32,369 nt of DNA from Theionarchaea archaeon (GTDB taxonomy: Archaea > Methanobacteriota_B > Thermococci > Methanofastidiosales > SZ-28-30), in contig JACVGW010000017.1 of the NCBI GenBank assembly GCA_018992565.1, forward strand, positions 1 to 32,369, given 5' to 3'. The notes beneath the pieces were generated by a model, which made no database searches, was not told where the DNA came from, and saw nothing but the letters and a program-made list of their open reading frames with translations. Positions 11,563 through 22,673 of the stretch are shown in pieces (position 1 is the first letter of the stretch; each line of letters opens with the position of its first letter). A program made the translations under genes and the position numbers.

Positions 11563-12057
11563 ATGTACTCCCACATCCGGAAATTCGTTGGGTACTTCTT
11601 CCATATGTCACTCAGGATCAAAATGAAAGCACTTAAGGTGATGGGCGTCAAAATCGGAAGGAACACAGTCGTTTACACTTCAATGCTCAATTTTGATACT
11701 TTCTTCCCAAATATCATCGAAATTGGATCAAACTGCGTTGTTTCCAAACATACGATTCTCATTACCCATGACTACTCCAGGAACTTCCCCACTGAAGGCC
11801 GGGCTTCCATGACTAAAGGGAGGATAGTGATAGGGGACAATACCTTCATCGGAATCGGGTGTATTATCCTCCCTGGTGTGAGTATTGGTAGCAATGTGAT
11901 TGTGGGTGCAGGGTCGGTAGTACGGGATTCTATTCCAGACAGTGTCGTAGCAGCGGGAAATCCCGCGCGAGTCATTAGTTCTCTGGAAAGATACATGAGC
12001 AAGGAACGTGCCAGAGAGGAAGCCTATGATACCACGTATGTTGTCAGGGCCATGTGA
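11563..12057 (+). CDS. hexapeptide-repeat (left-handed beta-helix) acyltransferase
   Basis: 164 residues from MYSHIRKF. Hexapeptide turns such as IEIGSNCVVSKHTILITHD, IVIGDNTFIGIGCIILPGV and SIGSNVIVGAGSVV predict a left-handed beta-helix. The HD in ITHDYS is the likely catalytic histidine region, and the AAGNPARVI ending is typical of maltose, galactoside or sugar O-acetyltransferases. The acceptor is unknown. The start is chosen because the TATA box sits 25 nt upstream. The next gene starts inside its 3' end, a 32-nt overlap with the chosen start of that gene. Confidence 0.85.
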   Translation: MYSHIRKFVGYFFHMSLRIKMKALKVMGVKIGRNTVVYTSMLNFDTFFPNIIEIGSNCVVSKHTILITHDYSRNFPTEGRASMTKGRIVIGDNTFIGIGCIILPGVSIGSNVIVGAGSVVRDSIPDSVVAAGNPARVISSLERYMSKERAREEAYDTTYVVRAM

Positions 12058-13228
12058 TACGAAATTCTGCACTCGATGCGGATGCTGTATCAGTATATGC
12101 CCACAAGAATGTATCACGATAACCACACATGCAGAAATTGATGACTCATGTACGCAGTGCGGACTGTGCCGTGAAGTATGTCCAGGAGAGGGGACTGATC
12201 TGAAGGAAGAGGGAAGAAAGCTGTTTGAGGGCTCATGCTATAACCAGTATGTGGGCTGGATCAACCACGCATATACTGGTTACTCTTTTTCTGATGCAGT
12301 TCGGAAACGAGGCACCTCAGGAGGAGTGGTGACCTCACTGTTGATCTGCCTTCTGGAAAAGGGAATGATAGATGGTGCTCTGGTGGTGGGCTTTGACCCT
12401 GAAAAGCCCTGGAAGACTGTCTACCAGGTAGCCACCTGTGCTGAGGATATTCTAGAGAGTGCTCAGACCAAATATCAGGTGACGCCTTTAACCCAGCGTA
12501 TTTTCAGTTTGCCTTTGGAGAGAATTGCCGTGGTGGGCCTTCCCTGTGTCATTCAGGGGTTGAGAAAGGTTCAGGCTCTCAAGCAAGGGGAGAAGATAAG
12601 ACTTCTTATTGGGTTATTCTGCTGGGTAAACATGGAACGGGAAGCCACAGAATTCCTGCTGGATATGCTCAAGGTTTCTCCTGAAGAGGTAGCGTCCCTT
12701 GAATACAGGGGAGGGGATTATCTAGGAGGGTTCAGGGTCACCAAAAAAGACGGGGAGGTCATCACCCTGGACAAGGAGTGCTACAATGTTCTGCCCTTCC
12801 TGTTTGCCCCTGAGAGATGCGTTTGCTGCAGTGATTTCACCAATGAATTGGCAGACATTTCAATGGGAGATGCCAAATTTATGCATTCTCAGAAGGGACA
12901 TACCTTTGTCATAACCCGATCCCAGGAGGGAGAAACTATGTTGAAGGCATGTCTTGACCACGTATCGATAGATGAACATGATATTGAGGATATTATCTGG
13001 TCTGAGAGCTCTTCTCTTTTCTTCAAGAAGAGAGGACATAGGAGGTTGTTGAGAGAACCCTCAGTACACTCGGAAGAAGAGATAGACATTCCCGTTAAGA
13101 ATCGGCTCTTTGAATTCGGATTTACTCTTATTCACAAGAACAGGAACTTCTTTAGATCACTGTTCAAAGCAATGCCTGTAGAGTTGTTTAAACTGGTATC
13201 AAGAGTCATAACTAGAGAGAGAAGCTGA
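12026..13228 (+). CDS. FrhB-family F420 hydrogenase/dehydrogenase beta subunit with two [4Fe-4S] motifs
   Basis: About 400 residues. Two ferredoxin motifs (CTRCGCCISICP and CTQCGLCREVCP) are followed by the FrhB N-terminal domain (TSGGVVTSLLICLLEKG) and C-terminal domain (IAVVGLPCVIQGL, LFCWVNME, ISMGDAKF). This layout fits an electron-transfer flavoprotein/iron-sulfur subunit that reacts with F420 or ferredoxin. The ATG at 12026 has AGAGAGG six bases upstream. A GTG at 12008 and an ATG at 12038 are alternatives. Co-expression with the acyltransferase is suggested by the overlap. Similar FrhB proteins occur in polysaccharide clusters (pyruvyltransferase-type loci), so a role next to a sugar acetyltransferase is possible. 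Confidence 0.87.
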   Translation: MIPRMLSGPCDTKFCTRCGCCISICPQECITITTHAEIDDSCTQCGLCREVCPGEGTDLKEEGRKLFEGSCYNQYVGWINHAYTGYSFSDAVRKRGTSGGVVTSLLICLLEKGMIDGALVVGFDPEKPWKTVYQVATCAEDILESAQTKYQVTPLTQRIFSLPLERIAVVGLPCVIQGLRKVQALKQGEKIRLLIGLFCWVNMEREATEFLLDMLKVSPEEVASLEYRGGDYLGGFRVTKKDGEVITLDKECYNVLPFLFAPERCVCCSDFTNELADISMGDAKFMHSQKGHTFVITRSQEGETMLKACLDHVSIDEHDIEDIIWSESSSLFFKKRGHRRLLREPSVHSEEEIDIPVKNRLFEFGFTLIHKNRNFFRSLFKAMPVELFKLVSRVITRERS

Positions 13229-15126: not shown

Positions 15127-15582
15127 TCACCACTTTTCAATGTGAGTAAGAATCACCTTGTGCAACTGATCCCTGTTCTCCCGGGTGACCTCAAAGACCT
15201 CTGCATCACCATAGGTAAAAGCATCCACAAGGTCACTTCTCACGATGAGGATGGCTGGCTCTCTGATATAGTGAAAAACATCAAGGACTCGTTCCACTTC
15301 CAGATACCCAATTTCATCATATACCAGAATATCTCCATCCCTTCCAAGACTGTCAATGATGAACTGCAGAGATTCTACACGAAAGAAAAATCTCCTGAAT
15401 TTCAATCCAGGCCCTGTTTCTGAGCAGAGTATCCTCTTTTCTCCTGTCTTCACGTCCTCAACATAGTACCCATCCTCAAACCGATCACTTATCACACCGT
15501 AGAAGTCCCTTCTGGATTCATTCACAATTCTCCGCAGCACTGTTGTTTTCCCAATTCCCCTCTCCCCTGTGATCACAATCAT
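15127..15582 (-). CDS. THEP1-type nucleoside-triphosphatase
   Basis: 151 residues from MIVITGERG. Walker A is GERGIGKTT at residues 6-14 and Walker B is ILVYDEIGYLE. Length and pattern fit the small COG1618 NTPases, which hydrolyse NTPs slowly in vitro and whose cell role is unclear. The ATG overlaps the TGA of the T-component gene (ATGA), with GGTGG just upstream. A GTG at 15594 is a possible alternative. It is the last gene of the ECF operon, which suggests a nucleotide-handling or kinase-like role for the imported compound. No own promoter is seen. Confidence 0.85.
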   Translation of the reverse strand: MIVITGERGIGKTTVLRRIVNESRRDFYGVISDRFEDGYYVEDVKTGEKRILCSETGPGLKFRRFFFRVESLQFIIDSLGRDGDILVYDEIGYLEVERVLDVFHYIREPAILIVRSDLVDAFTYGDAEVFEVTRENRDQLHKVILTHIEKW

Positions 15583-16250
15583 AGACTCCACCACCCCGCC
15601 CCAGCCAACGCAGCTGCCATGAAAAGAATCCAGGCATAATCAAACAGAGAGAATACCGATTGCTTCCTGAATGTCCTTTTCCTGTATATGCCGAAACATC
15701 GCCCCTCCATTGATAAAGTCAAAGCATCGGCTCTCTCCAGAGCCGAATATATCCACGGGAAGAAGGTATATCTCACACTGTTGAGAAGAGAAGAAACCCC
15801 TTCCAGGTTTATCCCCCTGGCCATCTGTGCCTTCTTAATCATCATAGATTCAGTACTGAAGAGTGGAATCAACCTGAAGGTGAGCACCATGGTCATGCCA
15901 TACCGGTAAGGCAGTCCACAATTCATGAGAGCGTGGGCAAATTCATTGGGGTCCTCTCGAGAAAATAACATGCCGGAAAACACAATTCCCAGGAATCTCA
16001 ACACAATACGCAGGGCATATTCCACTTTGTAAGAGAGATCTCCCTCAATAAAGAACGCGTTGATCCCGAAAATAATCACTGCAAATATCATGACAAATCG
16101 ACTCACCCGAAACCGAGTGACATACATCACAAAAGGGATGACAAAAAGCCCTGCCAGCACAACCAGGTCATCAACTATGAAAAGAATGACACAGTACACT
16201 GCCACCGTGAGGAATTTGGTGAGAGAATTCAGCCTAAAGCTTGATCTCAT
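15579..16250 (-). CDS. ecfT: ECF transporter T component (transmembrane EcfT)
   Basis: 223 residues from MRSSFRLNSLTKFL. About five to six hydrophobic segments are seen. The two coupling motifs typical of EcfT are present as KKAQMARGINLEG and LSMEGRCFG, the second being a variant of ARG. EcfT couples the ATPase to the substrate-binding S component. The gene starts 17 nt inside the ATPase gene with a G-rich ribosome site (GGGGGG before AAATTGC), and its stop overlaps the NTPase start by 4 nt. The longer frame from 16328 is rejected, since it would run through the end of the ATPase gene. Confidence 0.9.
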   Translation of the reverse strand: MRSSFRLNSLTKFLTVAVYCVILFIVDDLVVLAGLFVIPFVMYVTRFRVSRFVMIFAVIIFGINAFFIEGDLSYKVEYALRIVLRFLGIVFSGMLFSREDPNEFAHALMNCGLPYRYGMTMVLTFRLIPLFSTESMMIKKAQMARGINLEGVSSLLNSVRYTFFPWIYSALERADALTLSMEGRCFGIYRKRTFRKQSVFSLFDYAWILFMAAALAGAGWWSL

Positions 16251-17559
16251 GCAATTTCCCCCCTCGCAATTCAAATACACGGGTGCAAAATGCCTTGGCA
16301 ATAAAGGGATCATGCAACACCATAACACATGTCTTTCCTTTCAATAGATCCATGATCTTCTGGACATTCTCGTAGTCCTGACCAATGAAGGGTTCATCCA
16401 GGAGAATTACCGCTGGGTCATAGGAGAGAACTGAAACAATGTTGAGTCTCCTCTTCTCACCATAGCTCAATCTGAAGGGATTCCTCTCCTGGTATTCCTG
16501 CAGTCCTGCATCTGCCAGAAGTGGGGTGATATCACGTTCTACAGAAAAATTGGTTGCTGCGAAACATGCCTCTTTGCGCACAGTATTCTCAAATATCTGG
16601 TGATTCGGATTCTGGAATACGATCCCAACGTCTTTCGCGATTTCTGCAGTCTTTTTATCTCGTATGCTCTTGTTATTAATGAGGATGTCTCCTTCATAGT
16701 TGAGAAAATTCATGATACACATGAGGAGGGTAGTCTTCCCTGAGCCATTGGCACCCATGATCCCCACCACCTCATTTTCTCTCACTGTCAGGTTGACACC
16801 ATCCAGAATCAGGTCATCATATGAAAAAGTCACATTCTTGAGCTCCAGGACTGGTTCACCCACCTCCCTCATGTATCCGGTATAGTGAATATCTACAGGG
16901 GTCTCGATGCGGACTAAAGTCCCGTCCTTCATTTCATAGAAGTGGTCCGCATACTTGTAGATGTGTTTCCACTTGTGTTCAATGACAAGTGCCGAAATGT
17001 TTGCTTTTCCCTTGATTTTAGTAATGACTCGCATAATTTCCTTGGTTGTCTCCACATCCAGGTTTGAGGTGGGCTCATCAAAGATGATAACCTCCGGTTT
17101 CATGGCCAGAATGGAAGCAATGGCTACCTTCTGTTTCTCACCACCTGACAGAGAGCGGGTCTCTCTTTCTTTCAGGTGAACTCCTCCCACAATGCTCAGG
17201 GCCCAGTCTATTCTCTGCTGGACTTCTTCAGGTGAAAAACAGAGGTTTTCCAGCCCAAAGGCAATCTCATCCTCAACGTTCAGAGTACATATCTGTGCCT
17301 CGGGGTCCTGCTGCACCATCCCAATACTCTGGGCCAGTTCAAAGAGGTCCACCTCGTCAATGTTACTGCTAGAGAAGAGAATTTCACCGGTATGGAATCC
17401 AGTATCTCTCAGGAACCCCGCGATACTGAGAGCCAGCGTTGACTTGCCACTTCCACTTTTTCCTGTAATGACAATGAGCTCTCGGTCTACAGTGAGGTTG
17501 ATATTCCTCAGAATCCACCGATCGCCGTACTTGAAGCTGTAATCTCTTATTTCTATCAT
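16234..17559 (-). CDS. ECF transporter ATPase, two ABC domains in one chain
   Basis: A 441-residue fusion of the two energy-coupling ATPases. The first domain has Walker A GKSGSGKST (33-41), signature LSGGE (137-141) and Walker B VIIFDEP (157-163). The second has GANGSGKTT (269-277), signature LSYGE (364-368) and VILLDEP (384-390). Q-loops VQQDPEAQI and VFQNPNHQIF are typical of cobalt/ECF-type ATPases. It powers uptake from the cytoplasmic face. The start codon overlaps the stop of the S-component gene (ATGA). Fused A/A' ATPases are known in YkoD-like systems, which agrees with the YkoE-like S component. Confidence 0.93.
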   Translation of the reverse strand: MIEIRDYSFKYGDRWILRNINLTVDRELIVITGKSGSGKSTLALSIAGFLRDTGFHTGEILFSSSNIDEVDLFELAQSIGMVQQDPEAQICTLNVEDEIAFGLENLCFSPEEVQQRIDWALSIVGGVHLKERETRSLSGGEKQKVAIASILAMKPEVIIFDEPTSNLDVETTKEIMRVITKIKGKANISALVIEHKWKHIYKYADHFYEMKDGTLVRIETPVDIHYTGYMREVGEPVLELKNVTFSYDDLILDGVNLTVRENEVVGIMGANGSGKTTLLMCIMNFLNYEGDILINNKSIRDKKTAEIAKDVGIVFQNPNHQIFENTVRKEACFAATNFSVERDITPLLADAGLQEYQERNPFRLSYGEKRRLNIVSVLSYDPAVILLDEPFIGQDYENVQKIMDLLKGKTCVMVLHDPFIAKAFCTRVFELRGGKLHEIKL

Positions 17560-18509
17560 AATATCTCTATCTTTATCACGTCCTGCACCCAGTAACTCCC
17601 TTCATACCCCTTGGCTATCAGCCGTCTCTCTCTGGTAAGGATAAGCTCTTCAATCCCATCCAGTGGAAAATCCACCGCATATCCATCTTCTGCAATGACT
17701 CTCACTGTTCTTCCTCGAGGATTCGCCCTTTCCACAACAAGGGACAAGGGAATACCCGTATACTGGGCTTCGGGTTCATACTTGTACTGTCCCACCATCT
17801 CTGCTTCCACAGTGGTCTCATACTGGGAAAAATCATCATATATAAGGAAGTATGCCTGTCCTACGTCGCCTGTCACCTCAATTTTCTCCGAGGTCTTATA
17901 CACGAAAGAATAGTAGTACACGCCGCCCACCATGAAAGCTGCACATATCACCAGTGTCAGGGCTTTCCTCACGTTGTATTCCTGCTCTCTCCCTTCCACT
18001 ACATTCAGTACATTGTAGGCAAAAACACCGGCAAAAGCAACTCCTGAAACAAATGAAATGAGAGCAATCAGAGTGAAAAAGTGAATCGCATTGTAGGGAG
18101 CGAAGAACAGTTGGAAGATGAATACATTGGCTGCTGTTGCTATGCCTCCTGCAATGGAGTACGTATACACATTCTTCTTCCTCAAGACAAGGAACATCAC
18201 ATCAGCAAGAACTCCCTGGATACCGCTCAGCAGAATGACAAAAATACCAAGCTTGCCGCCGGTGAACAGCTCTACCAGCCCTTTGAGAATCCCCACCATA
18301 GTGCAGGTTCCTTCTTTTTTCACCAACCCAAAAGCCAGGATAACCCAGAATATGTGTAACCCTGCCAGAAATTGTCCTGCGCCAAAGGGGACGCCCAAGA
18401 ACCTGTTGACCAGGTTACCCAGGTATCCAATATATGTGGAACTCACTCCACCCAAAGCCGATAGTATAGCAATTTTAACCAGGTCTTTCGTTTGGAAGTA
18501 GTATTTCAT
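17556..18509 (-). CDS. ECF S component (YkoE-like) fused to an extracytoplasmic sulfite-oxidase-fold-like domain
   Basis: 317 residues. Residues 1-170 form about six membrane segments with a YkoE-like pattern (YIGYLGNLVNRFLG, KGLVELFTGGKLG, GIQGVLADVMFLV), the substrate-binding subunit type linked to thiamine precursors in bacteria. A further membrane segment (about 182-203) leads to a soluble domain at 208-317. Its end, KGYEGSYWVQDVIKIEIL, closely resembles the end of lipoprotein 1 (PGYESKYWMKGLAEIEVL), and EDGYAVDF matches SDGYTIEL. The fused domain should face outside. No cysteine is present in it. Both gene ends overlap neighbours by ATGA. The substrate is unknown. Confidence 0.85.
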   Translation of the reverse strand: MKYYFQTKDLVKIAILSALGGVSSTYIGYLGNLVNRFLGVPFGAGQFLAGLHIFWVILAFGLVKKEGTCTMVGILKGLVELFTGGKLGIFVILLSGIQGVLADVMFLVLRKKNVYTYSIAGGIATAANVFIFQLFFAPYNAIHFFTLIALISFVSGVAFAGVFAYNVLNVVEGREQEYNVRKALTLVICAAFMVGGVYYYSFVYKTSEKIEVTGDVGQAYFLIYDDFSQYETTVEAEMVGQYKYEPEAQYTGIPLSLVVERANPRGRTVRVIAEDGYAVDFPLDGIEELILTRERRLIAKGYEGSYWVQDVIKIEIL

Positions 18510-19279
18510 AGTGGAATCACCTCGTATGTGACCTCATCCCCCACACGAACAACAATATAATGATGGAACCCCTGCCTCGTCAATGATGATCCAGCTCCCC
18601 CTGATACGATAAGGGTTGTGCCATTAATGTCTTCTTCGTACAGGTGGTGTATGTGGGAGCAGAAAACATAGTCCACATGGTATTTCTGTACAATCTCAAG
18701 GAATTCCTCTGGATGAATCATGCAGTATGTCCCTTGAGGATCCAGAGGTGGCACGTGCATGAACACAAAGGTGTGTTCAACTCCTCTCTTGAGTTGGTTC
18801 TCCAGAAATTCAAGCTGAGATTCGTTGAGAACCTTTCTCGAATTGTCCAGAATCACAAAGAGAGCATTCCTGTAGGTGATAGCATACACTCTGTCTCCCA
18901 GATGCTGGGAGTAGTAGGGGGAGTCATCATGGTTCCCACATACGTACAGGAGGGGGGGTTTCAAAACGGATACTGTCTCCAGAAATGCTTCAAAGTCGTG
19001 TGGTGTCCCTTCAAAGACGAAATCGCCTCCTCCCACTACGAACAAAGGGTCCAGCTCATTAATCTGTCCAAGCATTGTGATGAAAACCTCTGGGTGCTGC
19101 GAACCGTCAGTAGGCCTGCAATCCCCAAAGAAGACGAATGTGAATGGATAGGTATCACCAAACAATTCTCTTCCTTTGTAAACTGGATACTGGTCTCGTG
19201 TCCTCTGAACCTGATACCCTGTCATGAGGATCAGTGCTGCCACACCTACAGCAGCTACCAGCACGTACCATCTCTTCAT
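18506..19279 (-). CDS. membrane-anchored calcineurin-like metallophosphoesterase
   Basis: 257 residues from MKRWYVLVAAVGV. One N-terminal membrane anchor (about residues 4-22) places the catalytic domain outside. Metal-binding motifs are FFGDCRP, VGGGDFVF, GNHDD, FMHVPP and CSHIHH. It is the first gene of the ECF operon and overlaps the S-component gene by ATGA, so removal of phosphate from the ligand before uptake is a reasonable inference. The ATG at 19279 is about 30 nt from the TATA box. The ATG at 19291 is only 18 nt from it and less likely. Confidence 0.85.
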   Translation of the reverse strand: MKRWYVLVAAVGVAALILMTGYQVQRTRDQYPVYKGRELFGDTYPFTFVFFGDCRPTDGSQHPEVFITMLGQINELDPLFVVGGGDFVFEGTPHDFEAFLETVSVLKPPLLYVCGNHDDSPYYSQHLGDRVYAITYRNALFVILDNSRKVLNESQLEFLENQLKRGVEHTFVFMHVPPLDPQGTYCMIHPEEFLEIVQKYHVDYVFCSHIHHLYEEDINGTTLIVSGGAGSSLTRQGFHHYIVVRVGDEVTYEVIPL

Positions 19280-19293
19280 CGATATGCTCATGT

Positions 19294-19351
19294 AAGCATG
19301 ACGTTATAAATATACCGTCCGATATGTCAGGGCAAGCATAACGTTTATAAA
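19294..19351. repeat. direct repeat over both divergent promoters of the ECF/lipoprotein locus
   Basis: AAGCATGACGTTATAAA (19294-19310) and AAGCATAACGTTTATAAA (19334-19351) are nearly identical, with one substitution and one inserted T, spaced 40 bp start to start. Each copy contains the TATA box of one of the two divergent operons, so this may be a pair of operators for one regulator. Confidence 0.65.
19303..19314 (-). promoter_or_regulatory. TATA box for the phosphoesterase-ECF operon
   Basis: TATATTTATAAC on the minus strand, within the first repeat copy, predicts transcription start near 19282 and an almost leaderless ATG at 19279. Confidence 0.6.
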
Positions 19352-19352
19352 G
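19343..19352 (+). promoter_or_regulatory. TATA box for the lipoprotein operon
   Basis: GTTTATAAAG is centred about 35 nt before the ATG at 19382, within the second repeat copy. The ribosome site GGTGAT is at 19373-19378. Confidence 0.65.
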
Positions 19353-19381
19353 ACCTCCAACCATGACACCGTGGTGATCAT

Positions 19382-20179
19382 ATGAAAAACCTTGGAATAA
19401 TGTTCATCCTGTTGGTCCTTGTACTGGGATGTATTGGACAGGAAGAAGTGGTGACAGAACCCGAGCCAGAGTACACATTGGACGTGACAGGACTGGCTCA
19501 AGGGACGATTACTGTTGCCGACCTGAGGGAAACTCCTTCAGAGTTCACCGCTATCCTGGTGAAATCTACAGGTACTGAAATCGAAAATACATGGAAAGGG
19601 AGGCTTCTCACTGAATTACTGGCACAATACAATGTGAATCCCGAATACATTTCATTTGTGGCTGAAGATGGGTACATGATCACACTCCAAATGGAGGACC
19701 TGAAGAATGCATATCTGTGCTACGAGATGGACGGGAAGCAGCTCGCTCTGGAAGACGGAGGGCCTGTAAGACTTGTCATCACCGACCAACCGGGGAAGCT
19801 GTGGATGTCGTATCTCAAAGAGATCAAGCTGATAGGAAAGGAAAATGCATTGATTATCCATGGCAAGACCAAAGTAGTCCTCGCTCTGACAAAAGAGGAT
19901 TTTGCGCGTTTTGACAAGAAAACGATGGAAGCTGAATTCAAGGGAGAAATGAAAACCTATGAAGGCATTTCCTTAACGGTACTACTGAATCAGGCGCGAT
20001 ATGAAGATGATGCAACTAGCATCAAATTCGTAGCTAGCGATGGATACACCATTGAACTGGATTTCGCTGAGGTATACGGTAACGAGGACATTCTGGTGAC
20101 TGAAGACTTCACTCTCGTTATGCCTGGATATGAATCGAAGTACTGGATGAAAGGCCTGGCGGAGATAGAGGTATTATGA
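19382..20179 (+). CDS. surface lipoprotein 1 with two sulfite-oxidase-fold-like domains
   Basis: 265 residues. The signal peptide ends in the lipobox LVLGC (Cys17). Domain 1 (about 33-152) shows oxidoreductase molybdopterin-binding family marks: TITVADLRETP, AEDGYMITL, LCYEMDGKQL, LEDGGPVRLVI and YLKEIKLIG. Domain 2 (about 158-265) is a second copy with LTKEDFARF, YEGISLTVLL, ASDGYTIEL and YWMKGLAEIEVL. The cysteine that binds the metal in sulfite oxidase is absent from the matching stretch, so catalysis is unlikely and ligand binding is inferred. It overlaps lipoprotein 2 by ATGA and diverges from the ECF operon. Confidence 0.82.
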   Translation: MKNLGIMFILLVLVLGCIGQEEVVTEPEPEYTLDVTGLAQGTITVADLRETPSEFTAILVKSTGTEIENTWKGRLLTELLAQYNVNPEYISFVAEDGYMITLQMEDLKNAYLCYEMDGKQLALEDGGPVRLVITDQPGKLWMSYLKEIKLIGKENALIIHGKTKVVLALTKEDFARFDKKTMEAEFKGEMKTYEGISLTVLLNQARYEDDATSIKFVASDGYTIELDFAEVYGNEDILVTEDFTLVMPGYESKYWMKGLAEIEVL

Positions 20180-20895
20180 AGAGACTCTTATTATTTCTTT
20201 TTTTGATTTTAGGTCTTGGATGTATCCATCAAGTGCCCTGGACCTTTCATGTCATAGACGATGGTGTGACTGAATATGCGCTGGATTCTATCGCATCAAA
20301 AGACATCTCAACGATTGAGGAGACACTTGTTGAGAAAGAGATTAAGAAAGTCACGTGGGAAGGTGTTCTGGCCAGGGAATTCGGCGAGGGTGACACTATC
20401 AACTTTATTTCGCAGGACGGATATCTAGTCAGTATCCCATATAACGTGGATGTGATACTGGCATTCAGGAAAGAAGGAAATCCCATTGGGGAAGAAGATG
20501 GTGGACCCTTGAAGATTATCGTGGATCCCACCTATGGCTGCAAATGCAACTGGCTCAAGTATCTGAGAATTGTGGAATTCGTAGACAAAGAAGACTCTTT
20601 TTCAGTCTACGGGGATGTGTTCAACTTGCTGACCTTTTCCCCGCGGGACTTAAACTTGCACTACGGGCTGGAAGATGTCCTGGCTAATACCTCCAATGAG
20701 GTCCCTCTGGTATTTGTGCTGGACAAGGCCATAACCAAGGAAAACGCTACCACAATAACGTTTGTCACAGAAGATGGACGTTATACATACACGCTGCAAG
20801 AAATAAGAGACATGAATCCCACTCTGATTTATGACAATGGATTCTGTATCATAGAACTGGGAATAGTGAACTTGAAGGGAATCAAGATCGAATAA
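20176..20895 (+). CDS. surface lipoprotein 2 with two sulfite-oxidase-fold-like domains
   Basis: 239 residues. The signal peptide ends in LGLGC (Cys16). Domain 1 (about 21-137) keeps SQDGYLVSIP and the family signature EEDGGPLKIIV. It then has an unusual GCKCNW (Cys122, Cys124) where lipoprotein 1 has GKLWMS. Domain 2 (about 140-239) is more divergent, with VTEDGRYTY and GIVNLKGIKIE. The start overlaps the preceding stop (ATGA), so translation is coupled. It probably works with lipoprotein 1 and the fused S component at the membrane surface. The ligand is unknown. The Cys pair could form a disulfide or bind metal. Confidence 0.78.
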   Translation: MKRLLLFLFLILGLGCIHQVPWTFHVIDDGVTEYALDSIASKDISTIEETLVEKEIKKVTWEGVLAREFGEGDTINFISQDGYLVSIPYNVDVILAFRKEGNPIGEEDGGPLKIIVDPTYGCKCNWLKYLRIVEFVDKEDSFSVYGDVFNLLTFSPRDLNLHYGLEDVLANTSNEVPLVFVLDKAITKENATTITFVTEDGRYTYTLQEIRDMNPTLIYDNGFCIIELGIVNLKGIKIE

Positions 20896-21222: not shown

Positions 21223-21942
21223 ATGATACTGAAAGAAGTATCCTGGTTGGACATAAAACCTGCAATAACAGAAGACGCTGTAGCAGTTATTCCTGTTGGA
21301 TCTACAGAACAGCACGGACCACAAAACCCTTTGGGGACAGATCATATGATTGCAGAACGCCTGGCTGCAGGAGTAAGAGAAGAAGCCATCATCACTCCCA
21401 CCGTTCCTGTGGGATACTCAGAACACCACAGACAGTTCCCTGGTACCTTGTGGGTTTCTCCCCATGTGCTTCAAGAGTATGTTTTAGGAATCTGCCAATC
21501 GCTGCAATACCACGGAATAAGGAAAATACTCATTGTCAATGGGCATGGCGGAAATACATTTCCCTTGCTGAGAGCAGCCATGAAGATGAGAGAACAGGGA
21601 GTCTTTGTAGGGCTACATGAGTGGTGGAAAGCCTGCAAAGAAGAAGATGCCCATGCGGGTTCTGGTGAAACATCATTAAACTTGTTTCTCTATGAACATC
21701 TGGTGCACATGGACAGGGCAAAAGACAATACAGCTGGATGGTCGCCTCCTCTCCATGGAACCATAATCTGGTATGATACTATTGATTTTTCTGATGATGG
21801 AACAGTGGGGAGTCCCACCAGAGCCACCAGAGGGAAGGGAGAGGTGCTGTACAGGGACGCTGTTAATCAGCTTAAGCAGACCATAGCCTACATGAAGGAA
21901 ACACCCCTGAAAGATTTGCTGTGCAAGGAGAGAGTGATGTGA
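21223..21942 (+). CDS. creatininase-family amidohydrolase
   Basis: 239 residues from MILKEVSWLDIKP. Metal-binding motifs are GSTEQHGPQNPLGTD, HHRQFPGT, VNGHGGN and HAGSGETS, all typical of the family. Archaeal members include the ArfB deformylase of riboflavin/F420 synthesis, while others act on different cyclic amides. The motifs here are of the general creatininase kind, so no specific reaction is assigned. TTGTGATTTC before the ATG is a weak ribosome site. The following phosphoesterase gene overlaps its stop codon, so the two are translationally coupled. Confidence 0.85.
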   Translation: MILKEVSWLDIKPAITEDAVAVIPVGSTEQHGPQNPLGTDHMIAERLAAGVREEAIITPTVPVGYSEHHRQFPGTLWVSPHVLQEYVLGICQSLQYHGIRKILIVNGHGGNTFPLLRAAMKMREQGVFVGLHEWWKACKEEDAHAGSGETSLNLFLYEHLVHMDRAKDNTAGWSPPLHGTIIWYDTIDFSDDGTVGSPTRATRGKGEVLYRDAVNQLKQTIAYMKETPLKDLLCKERVM

Positions 21943-22673
21943 CTGTGAGAATACTGGCTTTATCTGACTTTCATGGAGCTACTCATGTCCTGGATATGCT
22001 GATGGCCAGAATTGATCTGATTTCTCCTGATGTCATCGCATTCTCAGGGGACATTGTCAAAGGGCATAGCCGCGGAGACGAATGGCTCCAGGCACATGAC
22101 GAAGGAAGAACTCCTGAAGTGACAGAGGACATAAAAAACGAAGAGAAGGAAGATCTTCAATTTTATCAAGCTTTTTTCTCATTCCTGGACACGGTCAAGA
22201 TACCTTCTTTTGTGGTTCCGGGGAATATGGATGCTCCAGAAAGCCGCTTTCTCCAGGCGTGTCCTCAATCCAGACTGGTGCACCAAACCATGGTGAGAAC
22301 TCCTGTCAGCATTGCTGGCTTTGGAGGTGAGCTCACAGAAGAGCAGGAAGAAACAACATTTGTGCTCCAGTATTCCAGGGAGAGAGCCATAGAAGCCATG
22401 AAGCCATTTTCTGGCAAAGAAATCAGTATTCTCATTACCCATTCTCCACCCATATCTTCTCTCAGCAATGAAGATGGCCAGGAGAAAGGATCTGACGTTG
22501 TGAATTACCTGGTGGATCTTCTCCGCCCAGAGTATTTGGTCTGTGGGCATGCTCACAGCGCTCAGAGTTCAGAATGGATTAAGACAACGCTTGCAGTGAA
22601 TCCGGGGGCTGCGAAGTATGGTAATTATGCTGTAATAGAGGGGGATTCAGTGGAGTTCGGAAGGCTGGTTTAA
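21939..22673 (+). CDS. cytoplasmic metallophosphoesterase (YfcE/MJ0936-like)
   Basis: 244 residues. Calcineurin-type metal ligands are LALSDFHG, FSGDIVKG, PGNMDAP, ITHSPP and CGHAHSAQ. There is no signal peptide, unlike the membrane-bound enzyme at 18506-19279. The start is taken as the GTG overlapping the creatininase stop (GTGA), with AAGGAG eight bases upstream. GTG codons at 21921 and 21945 are alternatives. It probably hydrolyses a phosphomonoester or phosphodiester; the substrate is unknown. Its 3' end overlaps the convergent radical SAM gene by 4 nt. Confidence 0.85.
   Translation: MTVRILALSDFHGATHVLDMLMARIDLISPDVIAFSGDIVKGHSRGDEWLQAHDEGRTPEVTEDIKNEEKEDLQFYQAFFSFLDTVKIPSFVVPGNMDAPESRFLQACPQSRLVHQTMVRTPVSIAGFGGELTEEQEETTFVLQYSRERAIEAMKPFSGKEISILITHSPPISSLSNEDGQEKGSDVVNYLVDLLRPEYLVCGHAHSAQSSEWIKTTLAVNPGAAKYGNYAVIEGDSVEFGRLV

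Follow-up and report, generated by a model that had tools for sequence, protein, structure and literature searches.

We analyzed a stretch of 32,369 nucleotides from a Theionarchaea archaeon (here, the window), in which a locus at positions 15127-20895, with genes on both strands, probably codes for an import system that salvages the pyranopterin cofactor of molybdenum and tungsten enzymes (Moco/Tuco); the host is apparently unable to make this cofactor itself. The substrate class is well supported by two independent lines, the riboswitches associated with homologous genes and the replacement of cofactor synthesis in genomes carrying the system; the former evidence is bacterial and the latter mostly archaeal, the two being joined by the homology of the S component and by a common gene content. 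The first-pass annotation had proposed an ECF uptake locus with surface lipoproteins; the sulfite-oxidase (SUOX) fold of the outer domains and the likely Mo/W cofactor substrate go beyond that reading and are the more important results. The gene set, the folds, their conservation, the loss of the Mo-ligand cysteine, the riboswitch control in bacteria and the replacement of biosynthesis in archaea were all computed here.

All seven open reading frames were confirmed in the two facing operons initially described, five on the minus strand and two on the plus strand, giving a complete ECF transporter with outer proteins. The ECF operon (minus strand) begins with a membrane-tethered, calcineurin-like metallophosphoesterase, MPE (18506..19291; PF00149, E = 3.8e-11), whose sequence shows a hydrophobic N-terminal anchor and the motifs GGD, GNHD and HIH. 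It continues with the S component of ABC_cobalt/YkoE type (17556..18509; PF09819, E = 3.6e-19), a double ATPase of two fused ABC domains (16234..17559; two ABC_tran stretches, and 319 bits against the NCBIfam model TIGR04520, above its cut-off of 315), and a CbiQ-like T component (15579..16250; PF02361, E = 2.1e-17), and ends with an NTPase_1/THEP1-type P-loop protein, hereafter NTPase (15127..15582; PF03266, E = 2.1e-15). The plus strand carries 2 lipoproteins with two SUOX domains each: Lp1 (19382..20179; domains at about 19457-19840 and 19832-20176; PF00174, E = 6.5e-20, in two stretches), with the lipobox LVLGC, and Lp2 (20176..20895; domains at about 20236-20595 and 20581-20892; PF00174, E = 1.3e-7). 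The overlaps are exactly those claimed, ATGA at MPE/S, S/ATPase, T/NTPase and Lp1/Lp2 and 17 nt at ATPase/T, where the 17-nt and the fourth ATGA overlap follow from taking the T start at ATG 16250 (with GAGGGGGG upstream; the mechanical reading frame extends to 16328) and the NTPase start at ATG 15582. An ATPase pair, a CbiQ-like T and a small S are thus encoded together, as is characteristic of ECF transporters, and the pump is a bona fide member of this class. A second phosphoesterase (Metallophos_3; 21921-22673) follows a creatininase-family gene just past the two lipoproteins, and the window holds two paralogues of the F420-hydrogenase/dehydrogenase beta subunit (FrhB/FdhB; 128-901 and 12008-13228).

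We then looked at the outer domain, which had been described as present in five copies in three proteins (S, Lp1 and Lp2). Pairwise scores showed that the five are indeed related in sequence: the C-terminal domain of S scored 41 bits against Lp1b, Lp1a scored 30 bits against Lp2a and 16 bits against Lp1b, and the second Lp2 domain is divergent and the weakest of the five, with 11 bits to Lp1b. As both Lp1 and Lp2 match the Pfam family Oxidored_molyb, the outer domain has the fold for which sulfite oxidase is named, SUOX. Structure models gave the S and Lp1 domains this one common fold rather than unrelated ones. The model of S (pLDDT 90) shows a YkoE-type six-helix bundle, then a seventh helix, then a SUOX domain (17559..17891, minus strand, about residues 207-317), and with a TM of 0.75 to YkoE it has the fold of an ECF S component; a profile of 57 S homologues likewise matched YkoE (5edl, E = 7.5e-18) and also sulfite dehydrogenase, and 5edl ranked first by structure as well as by sequence. 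The model of Lp1 (pLDDT 85) contains two SUOX domains, closest, among the best PDB matches, to sulfite dehydrogenase, YedY and PruR. YkoE-type S components have six helices with both ends inside the cell; therefore, the added seventh helix puts the SUOX domain of S outside. ECF transporters normally work without a separate soluble protein that binds the substrate. An outer capture stage ahead of S is the natural reading of this arrangement, with the SUOX domains presumably doing the binding.

The outer domain is a SUOX molybdopterin fold without the metal-binding cysteine. All five domains of the window lack this Mo-ligand cysteine, which three further SUOX proteins encoded in this genome retain. 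Among aligned domains from related loci, 163 have a residue at that position, and in no case is it a cysteine. The proteins therefore share the Pfam family and the fold with sulfite oxidase, SorA and MsrP (YedY), but differ from them in lacking the cysteine ligand to Mo, in their tandem arrays and in their link to a pump. A catalytic sulfite-oxidase role was ruled out by the cysteine loss. Separately, Lp2 carries a CKCNW motif (residues 122-126, window 20539-20553) within a SUOX domain, invariant in 5 of 5 aligned homologues, which could touch the metal or the dithiolene.

Known systems come close to parts of the locus. The YkoEDC gene set also has a dedicated double ATPase and a CbiQ-like T. 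YkoE is similar to our S component in fold and sequence but lacks its seventh helix and outer SUOX domain; the SUOX lipoproteins and the phosphoesterase are further additions here. PruR, the nearest characterised Cys-less SUOX protein, is likewise extracytoplasmic (Lp1 against 7kom, TM 0.70); it is, in contrast, a single-domain protein that partners the regulator DcpA instead of a transporter, binds small pterins, and is reported to be too small for Moco and not to hold it (PMC13259868). No coupling to a DcpA-type GGDEF-EAL regulator was seen in our locus, where the neighbors are the ECF genes.

The gene order Lp2-Lp1 / MPE-S-ATPase-T(-NTPase) is kept in related genomes of three families at 34-89% protein identity, with synteny followed as far as the contigs reach. 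The lipoproteins and the ECF genes are together in these genomes, not apart, and the conserved order in three families means that their adjacency is not due to chance, an explanation ruled out by synteny. The divergent arrangement is also present in two further families of the window's order. The NTPase is kept as the last gene in families f1 and f2; the f4 genomes are devoid of it, and one of them also of the phosphoesterase. The closest named relative of the window is a Theionarchaea genome, with 88% identity in S. A genome-wide scan returned 133 places, of which 80 were kept, with carriers in Methanofastidiosa, Thermoplasmata, Asgard groups, Bacillota (including Syntrophomonas, Pelotomaculum, Thermovorax and Anoxynatronum) and Bipolaricaulota.

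Results showed 77 homologous loci with a SUOX-fused S component, in archaea and anaerobic bacteria. Many of them are cut by contig ends; within this limit, a further SUOX protein is encoded no more than four genes from S in 71 of the 77, and the genes beside S include the ATPase in 71, T in 63 and the phosphoesterase in 53. The view that the ECF genes, the phosphoesterase and the SUOX proteins form a joint system is therefore borne out by their co-localization in most of these loci. In many of them the phosphoesterase carries two fused SUOX domains of its own (U2MPE), and genes for large proteins, in which profiles count as many as about ten SUOX domains (approximate), lie close by. The S tree mostly tracks phyla, bacterial and archaeal homologues sharing about 39-47% identity. 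In addition, Thermococcaceae-like genomes (L016-L026) encode separate SUOX-domain proteins that resemble the S tail, without a fused S.

The bacterial loci gave the first line of evidence on the substrate. By cmscan, 23 Moco/Tuco riboswitches (RF01055) were found in 16 of 43 bacterial loci, and the only other riboswitch in those 43 was a TPP element on the minus strand of L109. Most of these RNAs immediately precede genes of the system: RF01055 stands directly upstream of the phosphoesterase-SUOX-S-ATPase-T operon in L061, L066, L070, L072, L104, L115 and L116, directly upstream of S in L082 and L090, and upstream of giant multi-SUOX proteins in L071, L076, L082, L090 and L092; some copies precede solute-binding-protein/ABC genes that are followed by S. 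The giant Bacillota proteins behind these riboswitches reach 1600-2100 aa (L071, 14656-19509; L092, 14662-21027; L076, 14817-20396). Neither the window nor seven archaeal loci gave a match to any Rfam family. Moco riboswitches are known to control Mo/W transporters, and in the text searched the paper describing them mentions no phosphoesterase or cobalt-type transporter (PMC2408646). At least two Bacillota carriers (G065/L061 and G089/L104) combine the riboswitch before the operon with tungsten/molybdenum aldehyde oxidoreductases (AFOR), and MoaA, MoaC, MoaE and MoeA were not detected in them. Many Bacillota carriers also have MoaC, so that import there would be a supplement.

The second line is the replacement of cofactor synthesis. 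Nine genomes of the window's order carry S, and eight of them (G000, the window's own genome, G001, G002, G004, G005, G007, G008 and G011) have no MoaA, MoaC, MoaE, MoeA or above-cut-off WtpA, while the ninth, G013, has S and the complete pathway. Among the system-free relatives in the order, all ten genomes have MoeA and all ten have WtpA (Fisher p = 1e-4 for either gene). Sub-cut-off WtpA matches occur in G002 and G005, and the search for ModA/TupA-type metal uptake was non-exhaustive. AFOR enzymes are kept in every archaeal carrier tested, with ten copies in G000; the archaeal carriers thus show what is expected of salvage, a missing pathway with the cofactor-using enzymes retained. Genus g4 mixes pathway-less carriers, pathway-bearing non-carriers and one genome with both, which places the switch on a short time scale.

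The same exclusion was seen in two independent clades outside the order. Of the 47 genomes of an Asgard class, 29 have S, 16 have MoeA and none has both; of the 150 genomes of a Thermoplasmata class, 23 have S, 78 have MoeA and one has both. With the three clades pooled, 2 of 61 carriers have MoeA, compared with 103 of the 155 genomes without S (Fisher p = 3e-19, or p = 7e-17 when stratified; neither value corrects for shared ancestry). The carriers are for the most part metagenome assemblies, many incomplete though mostly 88-99% complete, and single gene absences are therefore unsafe; that four or five genes are missing together as a sampling accident is very unlikely. Two archaeal genomes, G013 and G245, have both the importer S gene and MoeA and may be transitional states.

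From these results we infer import itself, the metal-loaded state of the imported molecule, and the phosphoesterase and kinase steps. In the proposed mechanism, the SUOX domains of the lipoproteins and of S would bind cofactor set free from other cells or from the proteins of such cells. On the outer side, the tethered phosphoesterase would strip off its terminal phosphate (or nucleotide). The YkoE-type S, with its dedicated T and double ATPase, would move the trimmed cofactor inward, where an internal phosphotransferase would re-add the phosphate. Phosphorylated vitamins are usually salvaged in this way, by an outer phosphoesterase paired with an inner phosphotransferase. The putative restoring enzyme would be the NTPase_1 protein here and, in the majority of the other archaeal carriers, a kinase of APH type: an APH-family phosphotransferase is a neighbor in 29 loci and NTPase_1 in 3, never both, and one or the other is present in 21 of 24 archaeal loci with enough downstream sequence. 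MoeA inserts the metal, and its loss together with MoaA-MoaE suggests uptake of finished, metal-loaded cofactor. Counting against the importer reading are the reported failure of Moco to fit PruR, the MoaE genes of G061 and G079, the MoaC genes of many Bacillota carriers, the lability of the free cofactor, and the common ancestry behind the co-occurrence counts.

We also considered what else such a system could carry. An ECF-type importer of molybdate/tungstate oxyanions, replacing WtpABC under Moco riboswitches, is improbable. Metal ions can be ECF substrates, as in the Ni/Co systems. The carriers have no WtpA, Tup/Mod-like solute-binding-protein and ABC-permease genes adjoin S in several loci, and Moco riboswitches govern Mo/W transporters (PMC2408646). 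WtpABC, ModABC and TupABC resemble our system in purpose, the supply of Mo/W enzymes, and in bacterial riboswitch class, but they carry oxyanions and then need MoaA-MoeA. Those genes are missing here: as archaeal carriers also lack MoaA, MoaC, MoaE and MoeA, the metal alone would be useless to them. Moreover, the outer domains have a pterin-binding fold and S is YkoE-like, a family for organic substrates. Import of a metal-free precursor (cPMP or molybdopterin), with the metal inserted by an unrecognised enzyme, would fit the regulon, the fold and the gene loss equally, and the carriers G061 and G079 keep MoaE, which acts on cPMP; against it, most archaeal carriers have no MoaE, MoeA or WtpA and hence neither cPMP conversion nor known metal insertion, which leaves this option rather unlikely as well.

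The match of the S domain to YkoE, together with the binding of small pterins by PruR-type SUOX proteins, might instead point to thiamin/HMP or another pterin (folate, methanopterin, monapterin) as substrate. We consider this highly unlikely, since the mutual exclusion involves Moco genes and one TPP riboswitch stands against 23 Moco riboswitches; the control by TPP riboswitches typical of the YkoE thiamin/HMP transporter is replaced in the bacterial homologues by Moco riboswitches, and thiamin/HMP uptake as suggested by the YkoE match was ruled out by this riboswitch class. SUOX-fold proteins include enzymes as well as the sensor PruR, and the SUOX proteins could in principle be redox or sensory proteins merely sharing a locus with an ordinary ECF transporter. 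This is scarcely credible given that S itself carries a SUOX domain in 77 loci, that further copies are fused to the phosphoesterase, and that the Mo-ligand position, wherever an aligned domain has a residue there, is never a cysteine.

To our knowledge, no Moco transporter has been described; for this reason, and because the molecule is labile, Moco is widely treated as something that each cell must make. Our search, which covered open-access papers, found no importer for Moco and no link between Moco and ECF transporters; neither this class of substrate, nor SUOX capture domains in fused or separate form, nor the cofactor auxotrophy appears to be described there. A cell can gain ready-made Moco from other organisms, as in the dietary uptake by C. 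elegans (PMC9793310), for which we claim no gene homology. With the cofactor importer as the preferred reading, we find it fairly likely that this is the first dedicated cellular importer of finished Mo/W cofactor with an outer capture array, and that whole lineages (Theionarchaea, Methanofastidiosa relatives, and Asgard and Thermoplasmata groups) are Moco/Tuco auxotrophs living on the cofactor of their neighbors. If so, the tungsten enzymes of many uncultured anaerobic archaea without cofactor synthesis genes would be explained, the Mo/W cofactor would join B12 among the goods common to anaerobic communities, and a defined prokaryotic gene set would make questions of cofactor transfer directly testable.

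Finally, the window's genome carries at L038 (G000:C123, 3168-5242, minus strand) a second SUOX lipoprotein gene, which overlaps that of a 520-aa multi-helix membrane protein. No Pfam family matched this membrane protein; its N-terminal part resembles an S component, and this could be a second transporter of the same kind.
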